Assembly (NCBI GenBank): GCA_949499105.1
Contig: CATEFX010000021.1
Coordinates: 84,815 to 148,814, forward strand
DNA length: 64,000 nucleotides
Reading direction: 5' to 3'
DNA from: Formosa sp. Hel1_33_131
GTDB taxonomy: Bacteria; Bacteroidota; Bacteroidia; Flavobacteriales; Flavobacteriaceae
The notes beneath the pieces were generated by a model. That model searched no databases, had not been told where the DNA came from, and worked only from the letters and a program-made list of their open reading frames with translations. Position numbers and translations under genes: made by a program. This document shows positions 27,507-47,118 of this stretch, piece after piece (within the stretch, counting starts at the first letter, position 1; the number at the start of each line of letters is the position of its first letter).

Positions 27507-27590
27507 GGAGAGGTGCCAGAGTGGTAATGGAGCAGATTGCTAATCTGTCGACGGGTAACTGTCGCCAGGGTTCGAGTCCCTGTCTCTCCG
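27507..27590 (+). tRNA. tRNA-Ser (GCT)
   Basis: GGAGAGG...TCTCTCC-G; anticodon loop TTGCTAA; long variable arm; GGTTCGAGTCC T-arm. Confidence 0.95.
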
Positions 27591-27616
27591 CAATTAGTAA
27601 ACTAACAATAGATAAC

Positions 27617-27714
27617 CAATTCGGGGTGTAGCGTAGCCCGGTTATCGCGCCACGTTTGGGACGTGGAGGCCGCAGGTTCGAATCCTGCCACCCCGACACA
27701 GAGGTCGTCACGCT
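27617..27714 (+). repeat. 98-bp direct repeat copy 1 (tRNA-Pro plus flanks)
   Basis: Same as 46799-46896 except one mismatch (27699 c vs 46881 a). Confidence 0.93.
27622..27696 (+). tRNA. tRNA-Pro (TGG)
   Basis: CGGGGTG...CACCCCG-A; anticodon stem-loop CCACG-TTTGGGA-CGTGG. Confidence 0.95.
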
Positions 27715-27765
27715 AAAAGCGTGACCACCCCGACACAGAGGTGGTCACGCTAGAAGCGTGACCAC
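27703..27765. repeat. Two REP-like hairpins downstream of tRNA-Pro
   Basis: gtcacgctaaaagcgtgac (27707-27725) and gtggtcacgctagaagcgtgaccac (27741-27765), each followed by 'cc(c)gaca'. Confidence 0.85.
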
Positions 27766-27776
27766 CCGACAAAAAT

Positions 27777-27806
27777 AATCCAATCACGAAAGTGGTTGGA
27801 TTTTTT
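27777..27806 (+). terminator. Rho-independent terminator of the tRNA unit
   Basis: 'aatccaatcac gaaa gtggttggatttttt'. Confidence 0.85.
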
Positions 27807-28358
27807 GGTTATTAAAAATGAGCATTCAAAATCACCATCTTTTTGGATTTAAAATTTCACTCAAATTGGGAATGATTTGTATTGAATTTGCTTACTAGTA
27901 ATTCAATATTACGTACAGATTTTAATCCGATTTCATCAACAAAGTTAATTACTTACTTTATTAGTTTCTCTCAAAGAACTACTAAAATAAAACAATACAG
28001 AATATCAATAAAGTTGAATTTATCTTATAATTTGAACGTGTTAAATCTTGATTTCCAGAGTTCAAAAATAACTTACAACACTAATTAACCATACATCTCC
28101 ACAACATTACTTTAAATTTAAGAATACTTCAATTTATTTTTATGGGAGGTTTGTTTAGATATCGTTGATAAAACCCCCTTAAAATTGTCATGTATGTTTT
28201 TTGTTGAGGTAAGTTTTGTCAATTTCTTAATATATTGATATAAATTCCCATTATAATAATGGTAGAATTCTATCTAGTACAAAAGGCACTCAAATCAAAC
28301 CGTTTGTTTTTGGAATTAAAACCATTTAGAATCATCAATTTATAAATTCAATAGAATT

Positions 28359-31300: not shown

Positions 31301-31496
31301 TTGGTTTATCCTTCCAAATACTCAAGTAGGCTTACGTGGTACATGGCGTTCATTAAATCAATATTCGCCTCGTTACTCACCTAGTTTTGTACCAGAAAAC
31401 ACCTATCCACCAATACCGCCAATTAGTACTGTTGGCTTTGGATTTGGAAGCGAATGGGAAATTAGAACATACATACATATCAATATTGGTAAATAA
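28359..31496 (+). CDS. Secreted TIM-barrel glycosidase-like domain fused to C-terminal outer-membrane beta-barrel-like domain
   Basis: 1045 aa; signal peptide; 'LVVNGEHFMINGMNWDY', 'FLLGNENNYG' and 'IMLTEFGADSF' (clan GH-A type Glu motifs); C-terminal ~550 aa of beta strands ending 'EIRTYIHINIGK'. Confidence 0.65.
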   Translation: MKHNFIRLVFFLFVTSIFAQADKVSVLNDDDGMKLVVNGEHFMINGMNWDYFPIGTNYSYSLWKQSDDVIKAALDAEMGLLKNMGVNVIRQYTGVQPKWIQYIYENYGIYTLLNHSFGRYGLTVNGAWEVVTDYRDPATQALLMSEATKMAQDYKDTPGLLMFLLGNENNYGLFWAGAETEDFPDEAEKIAFIGEERGRPMYKLMNDASIKMKTIDGSHPIAICNGDVLFIDIIAEECKNIDVFGTNMYRGASFTDAFKTVKEKLDMPIMLTEFGADSFNAIKNAEDQKMQAYYMVENWKDIYQNAAGLGKAENAIGGFTFQFSDGWWKFGQTKNLEVHDNNASWANGGYSLDLAPGENNMNEEWFGICAKGPTDVRGLYTLYPRAAYYALKEAHQLNPYEEGVDAEFVKNHFENIELMGAVLRARGDKAALGGNEKIKLSNMRAEFTTFNTGGSLITTPDNIDPKNSGYPDQLGFDHMQSYFIGVEANPTSSMRANVNFNILGNVADNPIDEIFYENTGRSISVNTDDGNVEITDPNRVKIYNAEFDWNAKEFNLRGFYRTGHYHWSYEGDFFGLYREANYGPNLDLYNGEISGIEVDGKGALKGLKAAFGSQLWWGANPAVLLKYGTKLGKWDVTGVYHEDIDDVGEAVTSIAVPLPKTRRVTLHTAREFGDFIFEAGGIWGGQPLNGREFQIAEGTTDNYIIYTDEIDAKDNWGAKAKLTYQKGAFKWYAQGASMGLVANGGTDQTQTFTGWKLKDSGSGNQNNFLTGFSYIIGDFEIAPNFLWQKPIVDAMPNDMNGGTGRLRNIQDDPFAVRSNRETTAGEILLSYDPTPGTWMYEWDNDRAEDAEFAFNLGFIYRHHPTAQDAAIGFLANRTAFAFPNAAPAKDLWEAHSRVVSKVSPDLGLIANFYAGNIQSTGSDERLVERYGGDIRLIYNKLKLTHTFKVNDWGPFDYHRDFNLTYPVQLMLDLSTTLGKPDWFILPNTQVGLRGTWRSLNQYSPRYSPSFVPENTYPPIPPISTVGFGFGSEWEIRTYIHINIGK

Positions 31497-31507
31497 AAAA
31501 CTATAAA

Positions 31508-32971
31508 ATGAAAAATATAAAATTTATGTATTCAAAAGTTATGTTGCTCTCAGGCTTACTTTTTGTAGTGATGATGAGTTGTGAACGAGATATTACGGAC
31601 AAAGTAGAATTTGCGCATTTGACCAAATCAGGTGAGATTTTCACAGATTCTCCAATTGGACTTGGAAGTGATTTCTACTTTCCATACACAGGTTCAAAAC
31701 CAACCGCATGGTCAGTAGACGAAAGCGAAGGCTATGAAAGTGCCGCCTCTATGCGAATTGACGTTCCTAATGCCAACGATCCAGAAGGAAACTATGCTGG
31801 AGCCATATTTAGAGTTGATGGTGCTGGACGTGACCTCACCGAATTTGATGCTTTGACTTTTTGGGCGAAAGCCACCCAAGGCGTTGTTATTGGTGAAATA
31901 GGCTTTGGACAAGATTTTGGACTGAATAAATATCAGGTCAATGAAACAGATGTAAGCTTCAGTACTACTTGGCAAAAATACGTGATTCCAATTCCGGACG
32001 CTTCCAAACTTTTTGATGAAAGAGGGATGTTTTGGTATTCCGCAGGAACTCAAAATACAGGTGGAAATGCCTACTCTTTTTGGATTGATGAATTGAAATT
32101 CGAAAAATTAGGAACTATCGGTCAGTCAAGACCCGCTATTCAAAATGGTGAAGATGTTGTTAAAAATGTATTTGCAGGAATTAGTTTAGAATTAACAGGC
32201 TTCACACAAACATTCAACTTGGGTAACGGCATTGATAAGACAGTCAATGTAGCACCAAGTTACTTTGACTTTACATCTTCGGAACCGAGTATAGCTTTCA
32301 TAAATGAATTTGGAAACATCAGTGTTAGTAGTGGTACAGCCGTTATTACAGCGAGTTTGGGTGGTGTAGAAGCGGAAGGATCTTTGACTATCAATGCCGT
32401 CGGTCAGTTTGAACTAGCACCAACCCCAACTACAAACCCTAGTAATGTAATTTCTGTTTTTAGTGATTCTTATGAAAACATTCCTGTAGATTATTTTAAT
32501 GGCTATTGGGAACCTTATCAAACAACTCTAGGAGGTGAAATTATTATAAATGGACAAAATGTGATTAAGTTTACGGACTTTAATTTTGTGGGCACGAAAC
32601 TTATAACACCTCTAGATATTTCGGAAATGACCCATTTTAGTATTGATATATTAATGCCTGTAATTTTGCCAACGGATATTGATATGCTTATTGTTTTAAA
32701 AAATGAAAATTCTGCTGAGACAACTCTACAACAGCAGCGTATTGGTGGTCAAACATATCAATGGTCTAATCAAACAGGGGATATCACTGATACGGAAACC
32801 AATGCAACCTTTGAAGCAGGAGGCGTATGGAAAACCTTTAAAATTCCTCTTAGACCAACGTCAGAAACTGGTTTGGATAAGACAGGAGTTAATCTCATCA
32901 TCATTGAAAGGATAAAATCTTCTAACGTGACTGATTTACACATCGATAATATGTATTTCTTTAAAGAATAA
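31508..32971 (+). CDS. Surface glycan-binding-type lipoprotein (CBM-like and Ig-like segments)
   Basis: 487 aa; lipobox 'VVMMSCE'; beta-sandwich-like segments ('DLTEFDALTFWAKATQG', 'DISEMTHFSIDILMP'). Confidence 0.6.
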   Translation: MKNIKFMYSKVMLLSGLLFVVMMSCERDITDKVEFAHLTKSGEIFTDSPIGLGSDFYFPYTGSKPTAWSVDESEGYESAASMRIDVPNANDPEGNYAGAIFRVDGAGRDLTEFDALTFWAKATQGVVIGEIGFGQDFGLNKYQVNETDVSFSTTWQKYVIPIPDASKLFDERGMFWYSAGTQNTGGNAYSFWIDELKFEKLGTIGQSRPAIQNGEDVVKNVFAGISLELTGFTQTFNLGNGIDKTVNVAPSYFDFTSSEPSIAFINEFGNISVSSGTAVITASLGGVEAEGSLTINAVGQFELAPTPTTNPSNVISVFSDSYENIPVDYFNGYWEPYQTTLGGEIIINGQNVIKFTDFNFVGTKLITPLDISEMTHFSIDILMPVILPTDIDMLIVLKNENSAETTLQQQRIGGQTYQWSNQTGDITDTETNATFEAGGVWKTFKIPLRPTSETGLDKTGVNLIIIERIKSSNVTDLHIDNMYFFKE

Positions 32972-33001
32972 TAATTAAGAAAATATTAAAACAATAAAAA
33001 A

Positions 33002-33988
33002 ATGAATAAAAATAATAAAAAGAGAAAGCGTATAACAACAATTTTGTTGAAAACGCTCAGCTTAGTAAGCATTCTTATCGCCTTTAGTTGTAATACAGAC
33101 GAAACCCAAACGGTTGCAGTTTTTACAAACTTAGTAATGGCCGATGAGTTTGATGTTGAAGGCGCTCCTAATCCTGAAATTTGGAATTTCGATATCGGAA
33201 CGGGTCCAAACTCTGATGGCTGGGGGAATAATGAATTACAATATTACACCAACCGTTCTGAAAATGTAACCGTACAGAATGGGCTGCTAGTAATCTCCGC
33301 TATCGAAGAAGATTATAACGGTGCTTCATTTACATCGGCAAAATTGTTAACCAAAGGGAAATTTGAACAAGCCTATGGGCGTTTCGAAGCCCGTATCAAA
33401 GTACCAGGCGGATCGGGACTTTGGCCTGCATTTTGGCTCTTAGGAGAAAACAGCGATGTGGATGGTTGGCCTCAGTGTGGTGAAATCGATATTATGGAGT
33501 ACCGCCGACAAGAACCAACCTTGGTGAGCGGATCCATTCATGGCCCTGGATACTCTGGTGAAACAGATCCTCAAGGGCAAGTCACTAAAAGTTACGATTT
33601 AGGAAATGATCGTTTTGATGCTGGGTTTCACATTTTTGGAATCGAATGGGGCCCTGAATACATCAATTATTACATAGACGATGTCTTGTACAATCAAATT
33701 ACACCCTCTGATATCGAAGTCACACCAACCGACGCTGTTTACACCTTAAACGATGCTGTGGAAGCAGTAGAAGCGATGGAAGCGACTGAAGATACTCCAG
33801 CTGTTGAGGCTGTTGAAGCAAAGGAAGCCACTGTTATTACAGGGGATTGGGTTTTCAATAAACCGTTTTACATCATAATCAATTTGGCTGTTGGAGGCAA
33901 CTTCCCTGGGAATCCAGATAGTGGAGAAACATTTCCACACAACATGCTAGTCGATTATGTGAGAGTATATAAAAATAGTAACAACTAA
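33002..33988 (+). CDS. GH16 family endo-beta-1,3-glucanase (laminarinase-like) lipoprotein
   Basis: 328 aa; 'FSCN' lipobox; catalytic 'GEIDIMEYRRQEP'; 'GSGLWPAFWLLGEN'; 'IINLAVGGNFPGNPD'. Confidence 0.93.
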   Translation: MNKNNKKRKRITTILLKTLSLVSILIAFSCNTDETQTVAVFTNLVMADEFDVEGAPNPEIWNFDIGTGPNSDGWGNNELQYYTNRSENVTVQNGLLVISAIEEDYNGASFTSAKLLTKGKFEQAYGRFEARIKVPGGSGLWPAFWLLGENSDVDGWPQCGEIDIMEYRRQEPTLVSGSIHGPGYSGETDPQGQVTKSYDLGNDRFDAGFHIFGIEWGPEYINYYIDDVLYNQITPSDIEVTPTDAVYTLNDAVEAVEAMEATEDTPAVEAVEAKEATVITGDWVFNKPFYIIINLAVGGNFPGNPDSGETFPHNMLVDYVRVYKNSNN

Positions 33989-33993
33989 TAAAA

Positions 33994-36312
33994 ATGACAA
34001 TGAAAAATTTATTCAAAAAAATTAAACAAGTTTCGATTTTAATCTTGGCAATCAGTTTTATAGGTTGTGACGATGATGACGCTATTTTGCCAAAACTAAC
34101 AGCTGGCTTTACGCACACAATTAATGCCGATACAGGCACCGTAACGTTTATTAACACGTCCACAAATGCATCGATGTACGCATGGGATTTTGGAGATGAA
34201 ACTTCTTCAGCCCTTATTAACCCGGTGAATGTGTATGAAAACGGAACCTATATTGTGGTTTTAAAATCTTCAAATGTTGCAGGAGCGTTTGATATCTTTA
34301 CCGATGAGATCGTAATTCTAATACCGGAAATCGCCACCTTACCAATTACTTTTGATGGTGAAAACACGAAATACGACCCTACAGTTTTTGATGGGACCAC
34401 CTTTGACATCCTTACAAATCCAGACCTTACAGGCACAAATTCTGTAGAATCAAACGTAGGAGCCATCACAAATAGTGGGGCGACTTATGAAGGTTTGTTT
34501 TTTGAATTAGGGGCCGCAGTCGATTTAACGACTGAAAAATCAATAAAAATGAATTTTTGGTCAGATAAAGCAGTCGATGTTTTATTAAAGCTTGAAGATG
34601 GAACTGCAGCGAACTCCGAAGCAACTGCGAGCCATACCGGAACTGGATGGGAAGAATTGATGTTCACATTTAATTCAGCAGCGAGCTACAACCAATTAAC
34701 GCTCTTTGTAGACGGTGCAGGAACAACCGATGGTACATTCTATTTTGATGATATAATGCAAGTTGTATCGCCTCCAACACCATGTACTCCAGAAACAGTT
34801 GAGTCGCTTGCCGCAGTCGATTTTAATGTCACATTTACGACCGACCCAACAGCAAGTATTGTGAATGATGGGACTACCTTTGAGTGGATTGATAATCCAG
34901 ATTTTAATAACACTGTAAATACATCTTGTAAAGTTGGAAAAATCACAAAACTTGGAACCAACCCTTGGGATAATAACCAAATTGTTTTAGATGCTAAATT
35001 AGATTTAGTTGCCAACCAAGGTTTAAAAATCAAAGTATGGTCTGCTAAAGCAAATACTGAAGTTAGAATTAAGTTAGAAGAAAATGGAACGCCTGCGAAC
35101 TTCACTGAATTATCGTTAACCACCTCCCTAACGAGTGAATGGGAAGAATTAAGCTTTGCTTTTACAGGGGACGATACGGATAAATATGATAAAGTCGTTT
35201 TGTTCTTTGATTTGAATGCAAACAATACCGACACCTATTATTTCGATGATTTAACTTTATACGGAACAGGGACGGCACCAGCGGGGTGTATTGCAGAAAC
35301 AGCACAGTCGCTTAGTGCAGCAAACTTTGAATTAACATTCCAAAACGACCCAACCGCTAGTATTATTTCTGACGGTGCAGGTTTTGCATGGATTGATAAT
35401 CCAGACTTTGATAACACAGTAAATACCTCTTGTAAAGTTGGTCAGATAGACAGAACGAGTGCAGCGCAGTATGCAAACAATCAAATTATTTTAGATGCTA
35501 AATTAGATTTTAACTCAAATTCAGGTTTTAAACTAAAAGTATGGTCACCAACTGCTAGTACAAACGTATTATTAAAATTAGAGGATCAGACTAATTCAGG
35601 TGTTTTTAAAGAAGTTTTTGCAACCACTTCATCAAGCAGCGCAGGTGAATGGGAAGAACTTACTTTTAATTTTACAAGTGCCGATTCTAATAAGTTTGAT
35701 AAAATTGTAGTGTTCTTTGAATTAGATTCAGCCACTGAAGAAACCTATTATATTGACGACCTTAAACTTTACGGCGACGGTTCTGGCGGCGGCGGCGGCG
35801 GCGGTGCATATAACCTTACGCTTCCTATTGATTTTGAGACATCAGGATTTGGAGCAAGTTGGACTTGGAATGTGTTTGAAAATGATTCTAACCCACCAGT
35901 AGAATACGTAACAAATCCAAACGCATCAGGAATAAATACTTCAAATACTGTGGCTAAAATCACGGCACTTCAAGCAGGGCAACCCTGGGTTGGTTGTGAA
36001 ACTGCACATGGCGAAATGGGAATTACGTGGGATCTTTCTGCTTCAAATGCGATCATTAAGATTATGGTTTACAAAACCGTCATTAGTGATGTTGGTATCA
36101 AATTAGTAAATCCTGCCGGAGGTGCACAACCAGAAATCAAAGTTCCAAACACTGTAATTAATGCATGGGAAGAATTAACATTTGATTTTAGCAGTCGTAT
36201 TGGAAATGGATTAGATGGCTCTACAAATATTGATCAAATAGTTGTATTCCCTGATTTCAATGCAAGAACATCAGATAATGTAGTGTATTTCGATAACGTT
36301 ACGTTTCAATAA
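33994..36312 (+). CDS. Multidomain lipoprotein: PKD plus tandem CBM-like domains
   Basis: 772 aa; 'SFIGCDDD' lipobox; PKD 'NTSTNASMYAWDFGDE'; repeated '..ADFN.TF..DPTASI..DG..F.WIDNPDF.NTVNTSCKVG'; Gly6 linker. Confidence 0.75.
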   Translation: MTMKNLFKKIKQVSILILAISFIGCDDDDAILPKLTAGFTHTINADTGTVTFINTSTNASMYAWDFGDETSSALINPVNVYENGTYIVVLKSSNVAGAFDIFTDEIVILIPEIATLPITFDGENTKYDPTVFDGTTFDILTNPDLTGTNSVESNVGAITNSGATYEGLFFELGAAVDLTTEKSIKMNFWSDKAVDVLLKLEDGTAANSEATASHTGTGWEELMFTFNSAASYNQLTLFVDGAGTTDGTFYFDDIMQVVSPPTPCTPETVESLAAVDFNVTFTTDPTASIVNDGTTFEWIDNPDFNNTVNTSCKVGKITKLGTNPWDNNQIVLDAKLDLVANQGLKIKVWSAKANTEVRIKLEENGTPANFTELSLTTSLTSEWEELSFAFTGDDTDKYDKVVLFFDLNANNTDTYYFDDLTLYGTGTAPAGCIAETAQSLSAANFELTFQNDPTASIISDGAGFAWIDNPDFDNTVNTSCKVGQIDRTSAAQYANNQIILDAKLDFNSNSGFKLKVWSPTASTNVLLKLEDQTNSGVFKEVFATTSSSSAGEWEELTFNFTSADSNKFDKIVVFFELDSATEETYYIDDLKLYGDGSGGGGGGGAYNLTLPIDFETSGFGASWTWNVFENDSNPPVEYVTNPNASGINTSNTVAKITALQAGQPWVGCETAHGEMGITWDLSASNAIIKIMVYKTVISDVGIKLVNPAGGAQPEIKVPNTVINAWEELTFDFSSRIGNGLDGSTNIDQIVVFPDFNARTSDNVVYFDNVTFQ

Positions 36313-36468
36313 TTTATCAATAGGACTAGGGAATAGCTTTCTCTAGCCTTATTAGATTACTACAGTCAATAGTGCAGTGAAAATTAATACAAATAATATA
36401 TCCGTAAAAGAATTGCTGTTATTTTCACTTATTAAAATAAATGAATTAAAATGGACATAAAAAAGGTT

Positions 36469-36502
36469 AGGATATAGTTCATTCCACCTAACCTTTTTTT
36501 AT
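36469..36502 (+). terminator. Rho-independent terminator
   Basis: 'aaaaaaggttagg...cctaaccttttttta'. Confidence 0.85.
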
Positions 36503-36573
36503 TTTTGAAACAATAAATTAATTTTTATAAAAAACCAATCAACTCTTAGGAGTTAAACGATATTAAAAAACTA

Positions 36574-36608
36574 AAAAACCTCTCCAAAAATAGCTACGGA
36601 GGTTTTTA
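36574..36608 (+). terminator. Hairpin with T-run immediately upstream of the GH149-like gene
   Basis: 'aaaaacctctccaaaaatagctacggaggttttta'. Confidence 0.55.
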
Positions 36609-36623
36609 TTGACAATCAAATAA

Positions 36624-39600
36624 ATGACAAATAACACTATTTTTTTAGATAAAAATAAAGACACCGATCAGGTCAAAGATATTGAAGGTACTTTAGTCAA
36701 TATAGACAATGAAGTCTTTTATAAAATCTCGAACAGTGATAAAATGAGACCATTTTTCATGAGCATTGTGAGTGATTCTAATCATTGGATGTTTATCTCC
36801 AGCAACGGAAGTTTAACCGCTGGAAGAAAAAATTCTGAATTCGCATTATTTCCGTATTACACAGACGATAAGATTACTGAAGCTGCTGAAATTACAGGAA
36901 GTAAATCTATTTTTCAAGTTCATAAAAATAGTAAAACTCATTTATGGGAACCTTTTTCCGATCGTTTTCAAGGGATGCACAACATCACTCGAAATTTGTA
37001 TAAAAACGAGTATGGTAACAAAGTATTATTTGAAGAAATCAACCACGATTTAGGACTGACGTTTCAATACCAATGGAATTCTACAAACACTTTTGGTTTT
37101 ATAAAAAAATCAAAGCTTATCAATACTTCGGATTCAAACGTTGAAATCAATCTATTGGATGGGATTCAAAATATTTTACCTTATGGCGTTGGGAGCGATT
37201 TACAAAATGCAAGTAGTAATCTTGTAGATGCTTACAAACGTAATGAGTTAGAGAAAAGTTCTGGATTAGGGATTTATGCTTTAAGCGCAATTATTGTAGA
37301 TAAGGCGGAACCTAGCGAAGCTTTAAAAGCCAATATTGTTTGGTCCTTAGGATTAGATCAACCTAAACATTTAGTATCGTCTCTTCAAGTTGAATCGTTT
37401 CGGAAAAATCAAGACCTTCAAGAAGAAACCGATGTGAAAGCAGAAAAAGGCGCTTATTTTGTCAATTCAACCATTGTTTTAACGGCTGAAGAAAGCAAAG
37501 AATGGATGCTAGTTGCTGAGGTTAATAAAAATCATTCAGCAATTGCAAAATTGATCCATGAGATTAAAACGAATGACGGTTTATCAGAACTCATCAACCA
37601 GAAAATTGAAAAAGGAACTGAGCGTCTCATTGCTTTAAATGCAGCCTCTGATGGGTTGCAACTTTCAGCAGATAAATTTAGAGATACTCGTCATTTTTCA
37701 AACACCTTATTCAACATCATGCGTGGGGGTATTTTTGATGATAATTATCAAATTGAAAAATGGGATTTTAAAACCTATCTTTTAAAAGCCAATAAAAAAG
37801 TAGCTAGGAAAACAGAGGACTTGGTTGAGAAACTACCTGAAGTGTTCTCACTTTCTGTACTACAAGAATTAGCATATCAAATTGATGACACAAACTTTAG
37901 ACGTTTGTGTTTTGAATACATGCCTTTAAAATTTAGCCGACGACATGGCGATCCGAGCCGTCCTTGGAATAAATTTTCAATCAATACCAAAAGCGAGATT
38001 GATGGTTCAAAAATCCTTGATTACGAAGGAAATTGGCGTGATATTTTCCAAAACTGGGAAGCATTAGCACATTCATACCCGGCGTTTATTGAGAGTATGA
38101 TCCATAAATTTTTAAATGCCACGACTTTTGATGGTTACAATCCGTATCGAGTGACAAAAGGCGGGTTTGATTGGGAAACGATCGAACCAGACGATCCATG
38201 GTCGTACATTGGCTATTGGGGCGATCACCAAGTGATTTATCTATTAAAGTTTTTAGAGTTTATTGAAAATCATCAGCCTGGCAAACTAGCAAGCTATTTT
38301 GATAAAGATATGTTTGTATATGCAAATGTTCCTTACAAAATTAAAAGCTACGACGCACTGCTTGAAAACCCAAAAGATACCATCGAATTTGATGAAGCAT
38401 TGGATCTTAAAATCCGTGAACAAAGAGTTGAACTTGGTGCAGATGGTGCTTTACTTCGAGATGAAAATCGTTTTATTGTAAAAGTCAATTTTATTGAAAA
38501 AATATTAGCAACCACTTTAGCAAAACTTTCAAACTTTATTCCAGAAGGCGGAATTTGGATGAACACACAACGTCCAGAATGGAACGATGCCAACAATGCG
38601 TTAGTTGGAAGTGGCGTATCAATGGTTACTTTGTATTATCTCCGACGTTTCCTTAAGTTTTTTGATACTGTAGTGGTTCAATCAAACTTAGAAACTGTTG
38701 AGGTTTCAAAAGAGTTAGTGACTTTCTTTGATTCTATTTCAACGACCTTTAACGACCATCAACATTTACTGTCGGGTCGAATCAACGATACAGATCGAAA
38801 ATTGATTTTAGATGCCTTAGGAAATGCAGGAAGCAGCTATAGAAATCAAGTTTATAAGAATGCGTTTTCAGGAAGAAAAAATGAAATATCCATCCAAGAT
38901 CTAAAAGCGTTTATAGCCGTGAGTCTTCAATATTTAGAACACTCTATTGAAGCAAATAAACGAGACGATAATTTATACCACGCGTATAATTTAATGACGA
39001 TAAACGATTCTAAGAGCGTTTCAATTTCATATTTAGATGAAATGTTAGAAGGGCAAGTGGCGGTCTTAAGTTCAAAATATTTATCGACCAATCAGTCCTT
39101 ATCTGTGTTGAATGCCATGAAAAGCAGCAAATTGTTCCGACCAGATCAGTATAGCTACTTATTGTATCCTAACAAAGCGTTGAAAGGATTTATTGAGCGA
39201 AATACAATTTCTGCTTCAGCTGTTTCATCCTCTAAATTACTAGAACAGTTAGTGAGCGATGGAAATGTTCAAATTTTAGAGAAAGATGTCAATGGTGCTT
39301 ATCACTTTAATGGGAGTTTTAAAAATGCCATTGATTTAAAAGTCGCTTTAAATGAACTTTCTCAAACATCTTATAAAGAACTCATTGCGTTAGAAACGCC
39401 CAAAATTCTTCAAATTTTTGAAGAGGTCTTCAATCACAAATCGTTTACGGGTCGTTCCGGAACCTTTTATGGATATGAAGGTTTAGGTTCTATTTACTGG
39501 CACATGGTTTCTAAACTACAGTTGTCGGTACTTGAAACCTGTCACGCAGCATTTGAAACGGAAACCAATGAAGCCGTTAGAGGCCACTTATTAGATCATT

Positions 39601-40097
39601 ATTACGAAATCAATGCTGGAATTGGCGTTCACAAATCACCAAAGTTATATGGTGCTTTCCCAACCGATCCTTATTCGCATACCCCTGCAGGCAAAGGCGC
39701 TCAACAACCTGGAATGACAGGTCAGGTAAAAGAAGATGTTTTATCTCGTTTTGGTGAATTTGGAGTGGAAGTTTCGGATGGAAAACTAGGTTTTAATCCT
39801 CGTTTGTTACGTGGAAATGAATTTTTAAAAGAGAGTAAAACATTTCATTACATCGCGCTTCCTAAAAAGAAAAACAGCATTTTAGTTTCCAAAGATTCTT
39901 TGTGTTTTACCTATTGTCAAGTGCCTATTACGTACACAATTTCTGACGAAGAGAGTTTAACGGTAAAATTCAGTAATGGTAATTCAACAACCTTTAAAAC
40001 GTTAAGCTTAGATGCTGAAACGAGTGCACATGTATTTAATCGTACAGGGGATGTTGTAGAACTAAATGTTCACGTTAAAAAGAGTCGTTTAAAATAA
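36624..40097 (+). CDS. GH149-like beta-1,3-glucan phosphorylase (GH94-related), cytoplasmic
   Basis: 1157 aa, no signal peptide; cellobiose-phosphorylase-like N-terminus ('NHWMFISSNGSLTAGRKNSEFALFPYYTDDKI'), 'KGGFDWETIEPDDPWSYIGYWGDHQVIYLLKFLE'; laminarin-type neighbours. Confidence 0.72.
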   Translation: MTNNTIFLDKNKDTDQVKDIEGTLVNIDNEVFYKISNSDKMRPFFMSIVSDSNHWMFISSNGSLTAGRKNSEFALFPYYTDDKITEAAEITGSKSIFQVHKNSKTHLWEPFSDRFQGMHNITRNLYKNEYGNKVLFEEINHDLGLTFQYQWNSTNTFGFIKKSKLINTSDSNVEINLLDGIQNILPYGVGSDLQNASSNLVDAYKRNELEKSSGLGIYALSAIIVDKAEPSEALKANIVWSLGLDQPKHLVSSLQVESFRKNQDLQEETDVKAEKGAYFVNSTIVLTAEESKEWMLVAEVNKNHSAIAKLIHEIKTNDGLSELINQKIEKGTERLIALNAASDGLQLSADKFRDTRHFSNTLFNIMRGGIFDDNYQIEKWDFKTYLLKANKKVARKTEDLVEKLPEVFSLSVLQELAYQIDDTNFRRLCFEYMPLKFSRRHGDPSRPWNKFSINTKSEIDGSKILDYEGNWRDIFQNWEALAHSYPAFIESMIHKFLNATTFDGYNPYRVTKGGFDWETIEPDDPWSYIGYWGDHQVIYLLKFLEFIENHQPGKLASYFDKDMFVYANVPYKIKSYDALLENPKDTIEFDEALDLKIREQRVELGADGALLRDENRFIVKVNFIEKILATTLAKLSNFIPEGGIWMNTQRPEWNDANNALVGSGVSMVTLYYLRRFLKFFDTVVVQSNLETVEVSKELVTFFDSISTTFNDHQHLLSGRINDTDRKLILDALGNAGSSYRNQVYKNAFSGRKNEISIQDLKAFIAVSLQYLEHSIEANKRDDNLYHAYNLMTINDSKSVSISYLDEMLEGQVAVLSSKYLSTNQSLSVLNAMKSSKLFRPDQYSYLLYPNKALKGFIERNTISASAVSSSKLLEQLVSDGNVQILEKDVNGAYHFNGSFKNAIDLKVALNELSQTSYKELIALETPKILQIFEEVFNHKSFTGRSGTFYGYEGLGSIYWHMVSKLQLSVLETCHAAFETETNEAVRGHLLDHYYEINAGIGVHKSPKLYGAFPTDPYSHTPAGKGAQQPGMTGQVKEDVLSRFGEFGVEVSDGKLGFNPRLLRGNEFLKESKTFHYIALPKKKNSILVSKDSLCFTYCQVPITYTISDEESLTVKFSNGNSTTFKTLSLDAETSAHVFNRTGDVVELNVHVKKSRLK

Positions 40098-40112
40098 ATA
40101 TTTCAAGTCATC

Positions 40113-41405
40113 ATGAGAAGATCAAAACAATTATTAGTTTCAACACTGCTTGTTTTTCTCATGGTGTCTTGTAAAAACAAGCAATCAAAACAAAGTACTA
40201 CCAACCAACAATCTCAAAAAGAAGTGACAGCTAAAGATATATTAGGAAATTCAAACTATTTAGCAATCTCTTATGGAGGGTATCGAAAATCGTCTAGAGA
40301 TATTCAACCCACTATTGAAGAGCTAAAGGAAGATATGAGAATTCTTCATGCGATGAATATCAGAATCTTACGCACCTATAATGTTCAATTGGCGCAGGCT
40401 TCAAATATGCTAAAGGCAATTCGAGAACTAAAAAAGGAAATTACTGGTTTTGAAATGTATGTGATGTTGGGAACTTGGATTGATTGTAAAAATGCATGGA
40501 CTGATCAGCCTTTGGACCACCATCAAGAGAGTGAACACAATGCCGCCGAAATTGCACGTGCAATTGCTTTGGCAAATGAGTATCCTGAAATTGTTAAAGT
40601 CATTTCAGTTGGAAATGAAGCCATGGTCAAATGGGCAGCGTCCTATTTTGTGCAACCCGTTGTTATTTTAAAATGGGTCATGCACTTACAAGACTTAAAA
40701 ACAACGGGTGACCTTTCTAAAGACCTTTGGATCACAAGCTCCGATAATTTTGCGTCTTGGGGTGGAGCTGAGTCTCAATACCACGTCGAAGCTCTTGAAA
40801 AACTAATGGCAGCTGTGGATTATGTCTCAGCGCATACCTACCCAATGCACGATACGCATTACAACCCTGTTTTCTGGGGTGTTTTTGGAACTGAGACAGA
40901 ATTGTCAAGTTTAAAACGAATTGAGGTCGCAATGAATCGTGCCACGGACTATGCCGCTTCACAAATTGATAGTGTGGCGAGTTATATGAAACGTTTGGGA
41001 ATTGATAAACCAATTCATGTTGGAGAAACTGGATGGGCAAGTGCTTCAAACCGACAATATGGCTCTAACGGCTCCAAAGCGACGGATGAATACAAGGAAG
41101 CCATTTATTACCACAATATGAGAGTATGGTCTGATGAAACCAAAAGGTCATGTTTCTATTTTGAAGCTTTTGATGAACCTTGGAAAGATGCTCAAAACAT
41201 TGGAGGTTCTGAAAACTATTTTGGCTTGTTTACTGTCGATGGAAAAGCCAAATATGTGCTCTGGGATTTAGTTGATAAAGGAGTTTTTGATGGATTGACG
41301 CGTAATGGAAATCCGATTACAAAAACCTATAATGGCAATAAGGAAGCCTTATTACTAGAGGTCGAATTACCGCCTTTGAAAAATGAAATTATAATGAACC
41401 AATAA
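40113..41405 (+). CDS. GH17 family beta-1,3-glucanase lipoprotein
   Basis: 430 aa; lipobox 'LMVSCK'; 'ISVGNEAMVKW' and 'HVGETGWAS' catalytic motifs. Confidence 0.88.
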   Translation: MRRSKQLLVSTLLVFLMVSCKNKQSKQSTTNQQSQKEVTAKDILGNSNYLAISYGGYRKSSRDIQPTIEELKEDMRILHAMNIRILRTYNVQLAQASNMLKAIRELKKEITGFEMYVMLGTWIDCKNAWTDQPLDHHQESEHNAAEIARAIALANEYPEIVKVISVGNEAMVKWAASYFVQPVVILKWVMHLQDLKTTGDLSKDLWITSSDNFASWGGAESQYHVEALEKLMAAVDYVSAHTYPMHDTHYNPVFWGVFGTETELSSLKRIEVAMNRATDYAASQIDSVASYMKRLGIDKPIHVGETGWASASNRQYGSNGSKATDEYKEAIYYHNMRVWSDETKRSCFYFEAFDEPWKDAQNIGGSENYFGLFTVDGKAKYVLWDLVDKGVFDGLTRNGNPITKTYNGNKEALLLEVELPPLKNEIIMNQ

Positions 41406-41406
41406 T

Positions 41407-42894
41407 ATGAATCGTATAAAAATATATCACCTTTTAATTTTAGTAGGAATGCTCACAGCATGTACAACCAAACAACCCTTACAAGTCACCGTGTACGAAA
41501 CGTCTGCGAGTGGAAATAAATTAACTGAAATCTCAGAATTTAGCACGTCAGAAAACGCCTCTGAAATAGGGCTTTTTCCAGATAAGACCTACCAGACAAT
41601 CACTGGTTTTGGGGGCTCATTCACCGAATCATCAGCCTATTTACTAAATCGTTTGAGTAAAAAAAATAGAGCCCTAATACTCGATGCTTATTTTAGTAAA
41701 AAAGGGGCAAATTATTCATTGACGCGAACCCACATTAGTTCCTGTGATTTTTCATTATCAAATTACACCTATGCGCCAATTGCCGATGATCTGGAGTTAA
41801 AACATTTTAGCGTCGAAGAAGATGAAGCCGATTTAATTCCGATGATCAAAGAGGCGATGGCGGTCTCTGAAGATGGTTTTAAAATTATAGCATCGCCATG
41901 GACAGCACCGCCTTGGATGAAAGACAATAATAAATATGTTGGCGGAAAATTAGTAGATGAACACTACGGTACTTTCGCCTTGTTTTTCTCAAAATATTTA
42001 GACGCCTACAAAGCAGAAGGCATTGATATTTGGGGGTTAACGCCTGTAAATGAGCCGCATGGAAATGGTAACAACTGGGAAAGCATGCACTTTTCACCAG
42101 AAGAAGAAACCGATTTTGTACAAAATCATTTAGGTCCCACACTTGAAGCCAATGGAAATGGAGCGACCAAAATACTTGGATACGATCAAAACAGAGCGGG
42201 TCTAAAGGAATGGGTCGATTCAATGTTTAAGGACGAAGCTTCATCAAAGTATTTTGATGGGACAGCCATTCATTGGTACGAAAGTACTTTTGATTATCTC
42301 CCAGAAGCTTTGCAGTATGCACACAAAAAAGCACCCAATAAATATCTGATCGAAACGGAAGGCTGTGTAGATTCAGAAATTCCTAAATGGCAAGATGATG
42401 CTTGGTATTGGAAAAAAGAATCCACAGATTGGGGCTGGGATTGGGCGCCGCCACAAGACAAACATTTACACCCTAAATATGCGCCTGTCAATCGCTATGC
42501 AAGAGATATCATTGGTTGCCTAAACAATTGGGTCGATGGATGGGTCGATTGGAACATGGTGCTCGATAGACAAGGCGGTCCAAACTGGTTTAAAAACTGG
42601 TGCGTCGCTCCCGTAATCGTAGATCCAGATAACGATGAAGTCTATTTCACGCCTTTATATTACACAATGGCACATTTTAGTAAATACATGCGTCCTGGGG
42701 CTCAAATCATTGATGTCAAAAATACAGATGCTTCTTTAATGGTAACAGCTGCTAAAAATCCTGATGGATCGATTGCAGTGATTATTTTTAATGAAGGAGA
42801 AAATTTAAAAACTTTTGAACTTTCCTTGGGAGATGCTTCAAAATCAATATCCATACAACCACAAGCAATTCAAACAATACTACTCACTAACTAA
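41407..42894 (+). CDS. GH30 family beta-glucosidase / beta-1,6-glucanase lipoprotein
   Basis: 495 aa; 'TGFGGSFTESSAYLL', 'GLTPVNEPHG', 'LIETEGCVD'; starts one base after the previous stop. Confidence 0.92.
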   Translation: MNRIKIYHLLILVGMLTACTTKQPLQVTVYETSASGNKLTEISEFSTSENASEIGLFPDKTYQTITGFGGSFTESSAYLLNRLSKKNRALILDAYFSKKGANYSLTRTHISSCDFSLSNYTYAPIADDLELKHFSVEEDEADLIPMIKEAMAVSEDGFKIIASPWTAPPWMKDNNKYVGGKLVDEHYGTFALFFSKYLDAYKAEGIDIWGLTPVNEPHGNGNNWESMHFSPEEETDFVQNHLGPTLEANGNGATKILGYDQNRAGLKEWVDSMFKDEASSKYFDGTAIHWYESTFDYLPEALQYAHKKAPNKYLIETEGCVDSEIPKWQDDAWYWKKESTDWGWDWAPPQDKHLHPKYAPVNRYARDIIGCLNNWVDGWVDWNMVLDRQGGPNWFKNWCVAPVIVDPDNDEVYFTPLYYTMAHFSKYMRPGAQIIDVKNTDASLMVTAAKNPDGSIAVIIFNEGENLKTFELSLGDASKSISIQPQAIQTILLTN

Positions 42895-42906
42895 TACCAA
42901 TTTATT

Positions 42907-45243
42907 ATGTCAACACATTCAGAAAAAGTTCCCTTCGGCCAAAAAATAGCCTTTGGCATTGGCATGCTTGCAAACCAAATGTTTCCAGCTGCATTGGGAA
43001 TCTTTATGGTGGTCTTAGTTCAAGATTTAGGGTTTCCAGGTTGGATGTGGGGTGTTATTTATTTTTTCCCAAGAATATTTGATTGTTTTACGGACCCAAT
43101 CATGGGTTTTATTTCTGATAACACAAAATCACGATGGGGTAGACGTCGACAATATGTAATTTTTGGTGGTCTTATGATGGGAATTGCATTTATCATTATG
43201 TGGCAACTTTTCAGAGAAAATGGTGTCGATTATAATTTTGTTTACTTCATGATTTGGTCGTTTGTATTTTACTTAGGATTGACCATTTTTAGTGTGCCTT
43301 ATGTCGCAATGGGGTATGAGATGAGTAATGATTTTCATGAGCGTACGAGTATTATGGCAACTGCTCAATGGATTGGCCAATGGGCATGGGTGATCGCACC
43401 CTGGTTTTGGGTGATTATGTATGATCCATCTTGGTTTGAATCGGCAGAAGTTGCGACTCGATCCCTTGCTTTTTGGGTCGGTATCGTTTTTACAATTTGC
43501 GCTCTTGTTCCTGGTATATTTATTAAAAGTAAATCCACATTAAATGAAGACTATTCTCCTCTAAATTTAAAAAATATTGGAAATAGTTTAAAAGAAATAG
43601 GTTCTGGTTTTTCAAGTGCTTTTAAAATGAAACCATTTAGAAAACTATGTATCGCTACTTTTTTAGTGTATAACGCTTTTATGACAATTGCATCATTTTC
43701 ATTCTTTATCATTGTTTATCATCTTTTTGAAGGCGATGCAGGTGCTGCCGGGATATGGCCAACGCTATTTGGGTGTTTAGGAGCCCTTGGAACTACTTTT
43801 TTGGTTATTCCGATCGTGACGCGTATGTCAAAAAATATGGGTAAAAAGAAAGCCTTTTTGATATCACAGGGAATTTCTGTTCTAGGGTATATAATGTTAT
43901 GGTTTCTCTTTATTCCAGGTAAACCTTATATGTTCATTTTTGCTCTCCCATTTTTCTCCTTTGGTATCGGAAGTCTATTTGTATTAATGATGTCTATGAC
44001 AGCAGATGTGATTGATCTAGATGAACTTAAGACGGGATTGAGAAGAGAAGGTACCTTTGGTGCGATCTACTGGTGGATGGTAAAATTTGGTTTTGCTATT
44101 GCTGGAGGATTAAGCGGCGTTATTATGAGTTCAGTAGGATTTGACTCAGGAGTTACTGTTCAACCAGAAGGGGCTATCGATGGATTGCGATTATCGTTTT
44201 CAGGGATTCCAATTCTTGGAACGGTCATAGCCATGCTTGTGATGCGCAATTATAGCGTTACAGAAGAAAGTGCTGGAATCGTTCGAGCTGAATTAGATAA
44301 ACGCAACAATTTATCACAAAACCCAACCTCTTTTTATCAAACCGATAAATTAGGTTCTTTAGTAGATTCAGGCCTCCAAATTGACAGCTCAACAGAGATT
44401 GATTTCACATCCAAAACGGATGCTGAAATTAAAGCCTTGTTTTCAACACATTTAAATAAGGGTCTTCATGGGTTGTGTTTTAGCCCCTATTTAGAAGGAC
44501 AAAATATTGGGGATCAATTATCTAAATCACAAATTAGTCAACGAATGGACATTATTGCGCCTTACACCAATTGGGTGCGTTCTTTTTCTTGTACAGAGGG
44601 GAATGAGCAGACTCCAAAAATCGCGCATAAAAAACACTTAAAAACAATGGTGGGTGCTTGGATCAGTGATGATAAAGATCAAAACGAAAAAGAAATTAAT
44701 GCGCTAATCAATCTTGCAAAATTTGGTTTGGTTGATATTGCAGTGGTAGGAAATGAAACGTTAATGCGAGAAGAATTAACAGAAAACGAACTACTTGAAT
44801 ATATACATCGTGTCAAACAAGCGATTCCGGGAGTTCCTGTGACTTATGTAGATGCCTATTATCAGTTTATTGAGCGGCCTCAACTTATCGACGCTTGTGA
44901 TGTTATTTTAGTGAACTGTTATCCATTTTGGGAAGGCTGTAGTATTGAGCAATCGGCAACGTATCTAAAGCAAATGTATGCGGTGACTCAAAAAGCAGCG
45001 AAAGGCAAACAAGTCATTATTTCAGAAACTGGGTGGCCAAACCAAGGTGACAGCACGAAAGATGCGCAGCCTTCTGAAATTAATGCGATGAAATATTTTA
45101 TAAATACAACCAATTGGGCGCAACAAAATGAAGTGCCACTATTTTATTTTTCTTCTTTTGATGAATCCTGGAAAGTCCATCATGAAGGCGATGTTGGAGC
45201 TCGATGGGGACTTTGGGATACCAACGAAAAATTAAAATTTTAA
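42907..45243 (+). CDS. MFS/GPH-family sugar transporter fused to C-terminal GH17 domain
   Basis: 778 aa; residues ~1-455 polytopic ('FPRIFDCFTDPIMGFISDNTKSRWGRRRQYV'); residues ~480-778 GH17-like ('AVVGNETLMREEL', 'VIISETGWPNQG'). Confidence 0.88.
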   Translation: MSTHSEKVPFGQKIAFGIGMLANQMFPAALGIFMVVLVQDLGFPGWMWGVIYFFPRIFDCFTDPIMGFISDNTKSRWGRRRQYVIFGGLMMGIAFIIMWQLFRENGVDYNFVYFMIWSFVFYLGLTIFSVPYVAMGYEMSNDFHERTSIMATAQWIGQWAWVIAPWFWVIMYDPSWFESAEVATRSLAFWVGIVFTICALVPGIFIKSKSTLNEDYSPLNLKNIGNSLKEIGSGFSSAFKMKPFRKLCIATFLVYNAFMTIASFSFFIIVYHLFEGDAGAAGIWPTLFGCLGALGTTFLVIPIVTRMSKNMGKKKAFLISQGISVLGYIMLWFLFIPGKPYMFIFALPFFSFGIGSLFVLMMSMTADVIDLDELKTGLRREGTFGAIYWWMVKFGFAIAGGLSGVIMSSVGFDSGVTVQPEGAIDGLRLSFSGIPILGTVIAMLVMRNYSVTEESAGIVRAELDKRNNLSQNPTSFYQTDKLGSLVDSGLQIDSSTEIDFTSKTDAEIKALFSTHLNKGLHGLCFSPYLEGQNIGDQLSKSQISQRMDIIAPYTNWVRSFSCTEGNEQTPKIAHKKHLKTMVGAWISDDKDQNEKEINALINLAKFGLVDIAVVGNETLMREELTENELLEYIHRVKQAIPGVPVTYVDAYYQFIERPQLIDACDVILVNCYPFWEGCSIEQSATYLKQMYAVTQKAAKGKQVIISETGWPNQGDSTKDAQPSEINAMKYFINTTNWAQQNEVPLFYFSSFDESWKVHHEGDVGARWGLWDTNEKLKF

Positions 45244-45261
45244 CCATTAAATTACATTTAA

Positions 45262-46170
45262 ATGTCATACAGAGAAGATCGAAAATTTTCACCAAAACAA
45301 ATCGAACACCCCAAAAAGTCAGTCGTTGAAGTTCCTAAACAACCCGAAATTCGTTTAGAAGAACGATGGCGAAACACGTTGAATAATGGGATGCATGGGT
45401 TGTGTTTTAGTATGTATGAAGATGGTCAAGGCCCTGGAAATGAAATTTCAGAAGCTCAAGTAGATCGACGGATGCAAATCATAAAGTCTCACACCAAATG
45501 GGTGCGTTCCTTTTCGTGTATTGAAGGAAATGAACACATCCCCCGTGTTGCTCATAAACATGGCATTAAAACCTTGGTGGGTGCTTGGCTCGGCGACGAT
45601 TTAGAAAAAAATGAAGAAGAAATTGAAGCCTTAATTAAATTAGCAAAAGAAGGCTATGTAGATATTGCTGCTGTTGGTAATGAAGTCATGTACCGTGAAG
45701 ACCTTACAGAAGAACAGTTGTTAGAGTATATCAATAGAGTCAAAAAAGCGTTACCTGGTATCCCAGTTGGGTATGTTGATGCGTATTATGAATTTTCACA
45801 CCGACCAAAAATCACTAAAGCATGCGATGTGATTTTAGCAAATTGCTATCCGTATTGGGAAGGCTGCCCTATTCATTATTCAATAGCCCATATGAAAAAA
45901 ATGTTTGACCAAGCCACCGAAGCGGGACAAGGGAAAAAAGTAATTATTACTGAAACGGGTTGGCCAAGCGAAGGTGGTAGTTTAAGAGGGGCCTTTGCCT
46001 CTCGTGAAAATGCGATGAACTATTTCATAAACACCCAAGAATGGGCTGAAAATAATAATGTCGAGTTCTTTTATTTCTCCTCTTTTGACGAATCTTGGAA
46101 AGTAGGCGCCGAAGGCGATGTTGGAGCCTATTGGGGACTTTGGGATAAAAATGAACAGTTAAAATTCTAA
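45262..46170 (+). CDS. Stand-alone GH17 protein without signal peptide, paralogous to the C-terminus of the upstream fusion
   Basis: 302 aa; 'AAVGNEVMYRED', 'VIITETGWPSEGG'; extensive similarity to residues 480-778 of the 42907-45243 product. Confidence 0.9.
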   Translation: MSYREDRKFSPKQIEHPKKSVVEVPKQPEIRLEERWRNTLNNGMHGLCFSMYEDGQGPGNEISEAQVDRRMQIIKSHTKWVRSFSCIEGNEHIPRVAHKHGIKTLVGAWLGDDLEKNEEEIEALIKLAKEGYVDIAAVGNEVMYREDLTEEQLLEYINRVKKALPGIPVGYVDAYYEFSHRPKITKACDVILANCYPYWEGCPIHYSIAHMKKMFDQATEAGQGKKVIITETGWPSEGGSLRGAFASRENAMNYFINTQEWAENNNVEFFYFSSFDESWKVGAEGDVGAYWGLWDKNEQLKF

Positions 46171-46321
46171 GAATCTTTTTATAGTTCCTAGTTAACATAT
46201 GAGATCCCTAGTTTCTCAAGAAGTTGCAAGCTGTTTTTATCAATTATTTCCTGTCATTTTTTAACATTCCAACGCTTCTAAAATTGTGCAAAATAATATT
46301 GGTTTGTTTGGTTGAGCTGCT

Positions 46322-46329
46322 TATATTTG
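46322..46329 (+). promoter_or_regulatory. Candidate -7 element (TATATTTG) upstream of the GIY-YIG/tRNA-Pro/tRNA-Arg unit
   Basis: Exact TAnnTTTG followed by 'caccgctctggta'; a TTTG at ~46303 lies upstream but spacing is short. Confidence 0.5.
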
Positions 46330-46378
46330 CACCGCTCTGGTATAAATATATGCTGAGCACAAGTTCATACAAAAAGAG

Positions 46379-46447
46379 AAGCATTACTTTTGGAGCGTAA
46401 AATCAAAAAGAGAGGTGCAAAAAGATATTTAGATAATCAATTCGGGG
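46379..46447 (+). repeat. Duplicated fragment of the GIY-YIG ORF 3' end plus first bases of tRNA-Pro
   Basis: 'gaagcattacttttggagcgtaaaatcaaaaagagaggtgcaaaaagatatttagataatcaattcgggg' also at ~46739-46808. Confidence 0.93.
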
Positions 46448-46533
46448 CATCACGCAAAAATGCGTGACAGGACGTAGCCCGGCCTGCAAAGCCAAAGGAA
46501 TTGTTATCGCGCCACGTTTGGGACGTGGAGGCC
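46443..46533 (+). pseudogene. Disrupted tRNA-Pro copy (segments 46443-46447, 46473-46482, 46504-46533)
   Basis: Retains 'cgggg', 'cgtagcccgg' and 'ttatcgcgccacgtttgggacgtggaggcc' of tRNA-Pro, interrupted by two insertions (first a hairpin) and with its T-arm/3' end replaced by a REP-like hairpin. Confidence 0.85.
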
Positions 46534-46552
46534 GTCACGCTTGAGGCGTGAC
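46450..46552. repeat. REP-like hairpins inside/after the broken tRNA-Pro
   Basis: tcacgca-aaaa-tgcgtga (46450-46467) and gtcacgcttgaggcgtgac (46534-46552). Confidence 0.85.
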
Positions 46553-46573
46553 CACCATATTAAAAAGATAAAG

Positions 46574-46813
46574 ATGTATGTGTATATTCTTTATAGTAAG
46601 ACGATATTAAAATATTATGTAGGTCAAACTGCAAATATTGAAAAAAGAGTATTAAGACATAACGCAGGTTATGTTAAATCAACAAAAAGAGGGTTACCTT
46701 GGGTGTTGATTTATAAGATAAAAGTTCATAGTAGGAGTGAAGCATTACTTTTGGAGCGTAAAATCAAAAAGAGAGGTGCAAAAAGATATTTAGATAATCA
46801 ATTCGGGGTGTAG
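46574..46813 (+). CDS. GIY-YIG nuclease superfamily small protein
   Basis: 'MYVYILYSKTILKYYVGQTANIEKRVLRHNAGYVKSTKRGLPWVLIYK...SEALLLERKIKKRG'; likely ATG at 46574; stop lies inside tRNA-Pro. Confidence 0.85.
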   Translation: MYVYILYSKTILKYYVGQTANIEKRVLRHNAGYVKSTKRGLPWVLIYKIKVHSRSEALLLERKIKKRGAKRYLDNQFGV

Positions 46814-46896
46814 CGTAGCCCGGTTATCGCGCCACGTTTGGGACGTGGAGGCCGCAGGTTCGAATCCTGCCACCCCGACAAAGAGGTCGTCACGCT
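46799..46896 (+). repeat. 98-bp direct repeat copy 2 (tRNA-Pro plus flanks)
   Basis: Matches 27617-27714 with one mismatch. Confidence 0.93.
46804..46878 (+). tRNA. tRNA-Pro (TGG)
   Basis: Identical to 27622-27696. Confidence 0.95.
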
Positions 46897-46907
46897 TGAG
46901 GCGTGAC
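46889..46907. repeat. REP-like hairpin downstream of tRNA-Pro
   Basis: gtcacgcttgaggcgtgac, same as 46534-46552. Confidence 0.85.
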
Positions 46908-46920
46908 CACCACCAATAAT

Positions 46921-46994
46921 GGTCGCATAGCTCAGCTGGATAGAGCACCTCCCTTCTAAGGAGGCGGTCCTAGGTTCGAATCCTAGTGCGATCA
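46921..46994 (+). tRNA. tRNA-Arg (TCT)
   Basis: GGTCGCA...TGCGATC-A; anticodon stem-loop CCTCC-CTTCTAA-GGAGG; CTAGG-TTCGAAT-CCTAG T-arm. Confidence 0.95.
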
Positions 46995-47021
46995 CAAATA
47001 AATCAATATAAAGTTAAAGCG

Positions 47022-47056
47022 AAGCAAGCTCAAAATAATGAGCTTGCTTTTTTATT
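47022..47056 (+). terminator. Rho-independent terminator after tRNA-Arg
   Basis: 'aagcaagctc aaaataat gagcttgctttttt'. Confidence 0.9.
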
Positions 47057-47118
47057 TTGGAATCTGCTGAAGTTGTTTTTGTTGACTTTAAGCGCGGAGT
47101 TCCTTTCTGTAAATAAAA

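Follow-up and report, generated by a model that had tools for sequence, protein, structure and literature searches.

We propose that the 79-residue GIY-YIG nuclease open reading frame (ORF) at positions 46574–46813 of the window, the 64,000-nucleotide stretch of DNA from Formosa sp. Hel1_33_131 analyzed here, is probably the gene of a very small, free-standing, homing-endonuclease-like selfish element that lives in tRNA genes, in this case a tRNA-Pro gene. At the level of sequence, comparison of loci and alleles shows that such units enter tRNA genes in a single orientation, bring half a tRNA with them and displace the native half together with a hairpin, and it documents lineages that follow tRNA isotype, tandem amplification and purifying selection; for the homing step itself, we infer a break made by the nuclease followed by recombinational copying. 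Such tRNA-inserting elements of ~300–400 bases are, as far as we have found, widespread across the Bacteroidota and without a description in the literature searched.

The ORF, which like all window features below lies on the forward strand, matches the Pfam GIY-YIG family (PF01541, E = 2.7e-14) and runs, without a terminator and without a gap, into an intact tRNA-Pro(UGG) gene, placed by ARAGORN and Rfam at 46804–46879 and 46804–46878. Bases 1–10 of the tRNA supply the last base of a TTC codon, then GGG, GTG and the TAG stop, which thus coincides with tRNA bases 8–10. The initial annotation had read the ORF end and stop as provided by tRNA-Pro across a terminator-free junction, and both observations are borne out. 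Absent from that annotation is a partial second unit just upstream of the ORF. This consists of a remnant of an older unit (46361–46447), comprising the last ~29 codons of a second GIY-YIG ORF that likewise enters a tRNA-Pro start, followed by a broken second copy of tRNA-Pro (psi-tRNA, 46443–46556) whose structure recurs in sister genomes. The remnant forms an 87-nt direct repeat, 94% identical, with the 3′ end of the intact ORF, and its protein-level match contains one in-frame TGA. The psi-tRNA is interrupted by two hairpins, one in the D-arm region (TCACGC/GCGTGA, 46450–46467) and one of 17 nt (46535–46551) that exactly replaces the 17-nt T arm. Upstream of the broken tRNA copy, the ORF and tRNA-Pro lies a putative promoter of the tRNA operon, TTG-N20-TATATTTG (46299–46329, -7 box at 46322–46329), presumably of the type usual in Bacteroidota.

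On the other side of tRNA-Pro, a palindrome search identified the hairpin TCACGCTTGAGGCGTGA (46890–46906), beyond which tRNA-Arg(UCU) (46921–46995; ARAGORN and Rfam) ends the cluster. A second tRNA-Pro gene (27622–27697), which follows tRNA-Ser (27507–27591), is the empty allele of a site occupied by the element in two related genomes (G012 and G014). Immediately after it, at 27708–27761, stand two tandem hairpins (27708–27724 and 27745–27761) with repeated tRNA-Pro 3′ ends and no ORF. Of the palindrome class to which TCACGCTTGAGGCGTGA belongs, the 2.1-Mb draft genome from which the window is taken has four exact copies, each at one or the other tRNA-Pro locus; it is therefore not a dispersed repeat of that genome. 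An Rfam scan of 46200–47100 returned tRNAs only, with no intron family or other known RNA family in the element.

The first relatives, obtained by protein search of genome contigs and of the window's genus, lie beside tRNA-Pro, Arg, Met, Ser and Gln genes. Profile searches gave matches in 132 of 199 Flavobacteriaceae genomes (E ≤ 1e-9) and in 151 of 247 genomes sampled over the phylum (E ≤ 1e-10); survey loci were picked from the match lists by rank, blind to tRNAs, and both samples consist of the better-scoring matches. Outside the Bacteroidota, the analysis came across one contig, assigned to Bdellovibrionota. An intact tRNA gene is found less than 500 bp away at 56/68 loci of the family sample and 61/67 of the phylum sample, a total of 117/135. 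These 117 loci cover about 20 tRNA species, and in every one of them tRNA and ORF share a strand. Several of the 18 loci without a nearby intact tRNA are array interiors or contig ends, and some retain tRNA pieces. By comparison, members of the other GIY-YIG subfamily that is common in these genomes, which served as a control, are tRNA-adjacent in only 1 of 29 cases, and this sole case (G070:C5) is the same tRNA-Asp locus as a member of the survey (L082). Completeness below the better-scoring survey matches was checked in eight complete Flavobacteriaceae genomes, in which every match was examined: of 19 ORFs with scores of 62 bits or more, 17 have a tRNA no farther than 500 bp away, the remaining two being inner members of tandem arrays that end at a tRNA, and none of the 23 GIY-YIG ORFs below 58 bits has one at that distance. 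A further ORF of this set (L066), split by a stop, sits at tRNA-Arg. Searches of plasmid and phage collections with the ORF (tblastn) and of the PHROGs phage families gave no match, and PADLOC returned nothing for the window protein and weak matches for two relatives only (best E = 0.0025). Our literature search on palindromes or GIY-YIG proteins at tRNA genes of bacteria turned up no account of this family; its coverage extends neither to most subscription journals nor to bioRxiv preprints, and a survey of the GIY-YIG superfamily mentions neither Bacteroidetes nor UPF0213.

The elements occur in two forms that are mirror images of each other. In the upstream form, a promoter is followed by a broken 5′ tRNA part with a hairpin, the ORF and the intact tRNA; in the downstream form, to which 72 of the 117 tRNA-adjacent loci belong, the intact tRNA is followed usually by a T-run or terminator, then by the ORF and a broken 3′ tRNA part with a hairpin. 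A second, partial tRNA copy lies beyond the ORF at 104 of 127 loci with an intact tRNA. Of these leftover regions, 82 contain a perfect hairpin arm 6 bp long or longer and 22 do not, although some 6-bp arms may be the tRNA's own stems; arms of at least 7 bp are found in 49, against 3.3 expected from dinucleotide shuffles. Hairpin position varies by lineage: it falls in the D loop (tRNA-Arg, Ala), replaces the anticodon arm (tRNA-Val, Arg and downstream-form Pro) or lies at the T arm (the window and Owenweeksia), and at several loci the hairpin is as long as the tRNA arm it replaces. Tandem arrays with at least two ORFs account for 50 of the 135 survey loci. TAnnTTTG is the -7 box of Bacteroidota-type promoters; at 32 of the 49 upstream-form loci this motif, the same as in the window, precedes the broken tRNA copy, and at 8 it stands directly before the intact tRNA. 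The end of the ORF lies inside the tRNA at 26 of these 49 loci, with TAG exactly at tRNA bases 8–10 in 15, and before the tRNA at the other 23. Overlap of stop and tRNA is thus recurrent beyond chance; the arrangement that the initial annotation singled out is a recurring feature of the family, but an optional one.

Related repeats were also seen apart from complete elements. Tandem arrays of hairpin-bearing tRNA pieces without an ORF lie beside intact tRNAs at 1765–2070 of L057 and 2500–2956 of L013, as well as at 27708–27761 of the window, and look like non-autonomous versions of the element. At four loci (L003, L028, L036 and L043, ~1440–1900), GIY-YIG ORFs away from tRNAs are flanked by a different repeat, CTGAGCGCAGTCGAAG / CTTCGACTGCGCTCAG, sometimes in several copies, a possible partnership of GIY-YIG ORF and palindrome outside tRNA genes. 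Additionally, palindromes of the class TCCCGA...TCGGGA are over-represented in four genomes (G173, G078, G184 and G159), apparently mostly outside elements; G173 has 61, against 0 for a reversed-pattern control.

Element presence and absence can be followed at allelic sites with conserved flanks at two loci, tRNA-Met and Ser-Pro. In the window's genus the tRNA-Met locus is filled in two genomes (G017 and G001) and empty in nine sister genomes, and comparison of the alleles reveals an insertion of ~390 bp into tRNA-Met that has donated a new 3′ half and displaced the native one. The GIY-YIG gene is the sole ORF of this unit, which lacks a site-specific integrase. In G017, the element's trailer stands after the intact tRNA, and the native one (CCTGAATACCCTTCTTAATTGAGGGG) has come to lie behind the broken 3′ half; the native trailer of both filled genomes is common to the empty genomes G002, G003, G005, G006 and G010. 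In G001, the intact tRNA-Met carries the element's trailer and the T-stem letters ATGG/ATG of the inner element copies, and the last broken copies carry TTGG/AAG and the native trailer, as in most empty relatives. Judging from these T-stem letters and trailers, the intact tRNA-Met of G001 combines a 5′ half of native origin with a 3′ half that came from the element, and the element thus restores the tRNA gene that it enters. The Ser-Pro locus is empty in the window and G001 and filled in G012 and G014; in G012, the downstream sequence continues as in the window. The initial annotation had supposed that the element regenerates its own ORF end on insertion, which has the mechanism wrong: it is the tRNA that is regenerated, from the tRNA half that the element carries. 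The tRNA-Met array of G001 also contains, at ~2300–9300 of L261, an island of ~7 kb with a tyrosine integrase (Phage_integrase), positioned between two broken tRNA 3′ ends as if one of them were its attachment site.

The phylogeny of the ORFs follows the tRNA rather than chance. Our tree comprises 141 ORFs and only 76 alignment columns, and many of its forks are unresolved; one locus labeled tRNA-Stop (L079) is a broken tRNA-Val and was scored as Val. On this tree, isotype changes 35 times, against a mean of 87 (minimum 81) when isotypes are shuffled and 80 (minimum 70) when they are shuffled within host families. With the C-terminal part removed, the corresponding figures are 38 against 87 and 80. 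Similarly, when each ORF is paired with its nearest relative in a different genus, isotypes agree in 88 of 122 cases (12.8 expected); for the nearest relative in a different family, they agree in 49 of 122 (10.3 expected). ORF clades therefore track isotype across host families, and these counts suggest that each lineage keeps one kind of tRNA while passing between hosts, or that selection holds it there. Taken with tRNA adjacency, the single orientation and the empty and filled alleles, they give strong support to the earlier suggestion of a tRNA-targeted selfish element.

AlphaFold2 models the 79-residue protein as one compact GIY-YIG domain (pLDDT 93). A catalytic domain of the homing type is present, with invariant Y, Y, G, R, H, E and K columns and with Arg25 and Glu61 as putative catalytic residues; a separate DNA-recognition module is not, the ~79 residues forming a single GIY-YIG fold without a further domain. 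The nearest solved structures are UPF0213, SLX1 and the catalytic domain of I-TevI, as judged by sequence profile and by a PDB structure search, in which E-values were weak, so that our statement on the fold draws mainly on the profile. UPF0213 (YhbQ-like) is closest in both sequence and fold, with the tRNA-linked group set apart by score and genomic context, and the model for group I intron endonucleases gave a partial match below its cutoff. Values of dN/dS between sister copies range from 0.14 to 0.46, and from 0.20 to 0.46 in comparisons of the window ORF with its counterparts in sister genomes and of these with one another, which is indicative of purifying selection and implies that the protein is maintained.

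On the basis of these patterns, we propose the following cycle. The single-domain nuclease would cut the matching tRNA gene of an element-free allele, and host recombination would repair the break from the element-bearing copy, through homology in the tRNA and its leader or trailer. As the sequences show, insertion interrupts the tRNA gene and the element makes good the missing portion, 5′ in the case of an upstream element and 3′ in that of a downstream one, which leaves a single intact tRNA. The displaced native part remains beyond the ORF, and in most cases a GC-rich hairpin lies within one of its arms or substitutes for it. This hairpin may shield the leftover half-site from recutting, and the intact tRNA may in turn be protected by its altered flank. 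Tandem arrays could arise from repeated cutting with unequal repair. Transcription of the upstream-form ORF probably starts at the promoter of the tRNA, from which the ORF also borrows its stop codon; judging from the positions of the promoter motif, the co-transcription of ORF and tRNA envisaged by the initial annotation is plausible. If so, RNase P, by cutting where the tRNA begins, would separate the mRNA from its stop codon, and nuclease levels could be held low in this way.

Several features sit uneasily with homing. A DNA-recognition domain is missing from the protein, and among solved structures it stands closest to UPF0213 and SLX1, a structure-specific nuclease, not to homing enzymes that recognize a site; next to the element, the intact tRNA retains much of any target site internal to the tRNA; the hairpin differs in position between lineages (D, anticodon or T region); and 22 of the 104 leftover regions have no perfect arm of this kind. 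It could be that the nuclease is structure-selective in the manner of SLX1, cutting cruciforms or hairpins that palindromes and tRNA arms form, that mobility or amplification resides in the palindromes, as in REP/RAYT systems, and that the tRNA is merely a hairpin-rich target. The folds of UPF0213 and SLX1 would suit such an enzyme, as would the recurrence of hairpins, several of which replace a tRNA arm at equal length, their ORF-less tandem arrays (in the window and L057) and the TCCCGA...TCGGGA class of palindromes elsewhere in some genomes, such as G173. However, the palindrome of the window genome is confined to its two tRNA-Pro loci, and a tree that follows isotype argues for recognition of sequence; stem-loops, moreover, are shared by all tRNAs. 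We regard this alternative as unlikely. Another possibility is that the co-transcribed, hairpin-broken tRNA copy, or the tRNA itself, guides or partners the nuclease in an RNA-aimed GIY-YIG system. This would explain both the missing DNA-binding domain and the restriction of each ORF lineage to one isotype, and we consider it very unlikely.

A gene in the service of the host, such as an RNA or tRNA nuclease or a defense component co-regulated with tRNAs, with the broken tRNA acting as a decoy or regulatory RNA, would be expected to show the purifying selection, strict co-orientation and probable co-transcription with the tRNA described above. Such a role is hard to reconcile with elements that are present in some sister genomes and absent from others, form tandem arrays, decay to remnants and differ in their tRNA targets, or with the results from phage families and PADLOC, and it strikes us as decidedly improbable. 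Finally, tRNA genes are classical attachment sites, and an integrase island does lie inside one tRNA-Met array, so the ORF could be imagined as a passenger of integrase-type islands or of random duplication at general insertion hot spots. Against this, other GIY-YIG ORFs of the same genomes are found at tRNAs in just 1/29 and 0/23 cases, the units of ~400 bp carry no integrase, co-orientation is complete and the clades are isotype-specific, and we give this explanation hardly any credence.

Between the two tRNA-Pro copies of the window (27698–46200) lies an 18.7-kb polysaccharide cluster of the laminarin type, with GH2-like, GH16, GH30 and GH17 genes and a transporter gene. Two related genomes (G001 and G014) have an uninterrupted Ser-Pro-Pro-Arg series, with GH17 encoded ~0.24–0.27 Mb away, so a rearrangement has joined cluster and tRNA-Pro pair, possibly via the tRNA or element repeats. 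Within the cluster, a 778-residue ORF (42907–45243) encodes a sugar transporter of the MFS type fused at its C-terminus to a domain that shares ~58% identity with the neighboring GH17 enzyme, a fusion also present in sister genomes. A 1157-residue protein (36624–40097) has no Pfam match at 1e-3; in this context, a beta-1,3-glucan phosphorylase (GH149-like) would be our presumption.

If our interpretation is correct, these loci represent a family of tiny autonomous mobile elements that extends over the whole phylum, resides in bacterial chromosomes and can invade tRNA genes, essential as these are, while the cell keeps its tRNA. This would account for many Bacteroidota "GIY-YIG nuclease" ORFs, tRNA fragments and tRNA-side hairpins that are otherwise annotated as unrelated debris. 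It would also provide a natural set of candidate isotype-specific tRNA-gene nucleases of ~80 residues, suited to the study of target finding, and make the rearrangement of tRNA operons testable.

Several known systems share part of this organization. As in REP/RAYT systems, short palindromes adjoin a nuclease gene; however, the nuclease here is GIY-YIG rather than a Y1 (HuH) tyrosine transposase, and the genome-wide dispersal of palindromes is not seen in the window genome, where all four copies are at tRNA-Pro, although other genomes differ in this respect. UPF0213 and SLX1 are the nearest solved structures, but the UPF0213-like relatives that the same genomes encode lie away from tRNA genes, and SLX1 is a eukaryotic structure-specific nuclease. 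Intron-encoded endonucleases of tRNA genes have a comparable specificity, yet there the intron is spliced, whereas here the ORF abuts the tRNA outside any self-splicing intron or intein, in line with the Rfam scan, and the gene is kept whole by duplication. Integrative elements that target tRNAs, with a tyrosine integrase and attB in the tRNA, insert into the tRNA gene and carry the part that restores it, as these elements do; the latter differ in having no integrase, a unit of only ~300–400 bp, donation of either the 5′ or the 3′ part, and tandem arrays. The experimental parallel is SegB, a free-standing GIY-YIG homing endonuclease in the tRNA clusters of T4 and T6 phages (PMC13096335, PMC2988022). 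Like the ORFs described here, SegB of phage T6 is a GIY-YIG enzyme with tRNA genes as neighbors; it is reported to cut inside such genes, to have microhomology at the 3′ end of its gene with the 5′ end of the tRNA, and to drive tandem amplification (PMC13096335). SegB is, however, a phage protein encoded between tRNA genes, whereas the chromosomal, 79-residue single-domain protein inserts into the tRNA itself, a tRNA half is donated and a hairpin-broken copy left behind, and there are many lineages, each with its own isotype. As the DNA-recognition domain of known homing endonucleases is absent, we do not file the protein as a member of the Seg family, but only as one that works like it.
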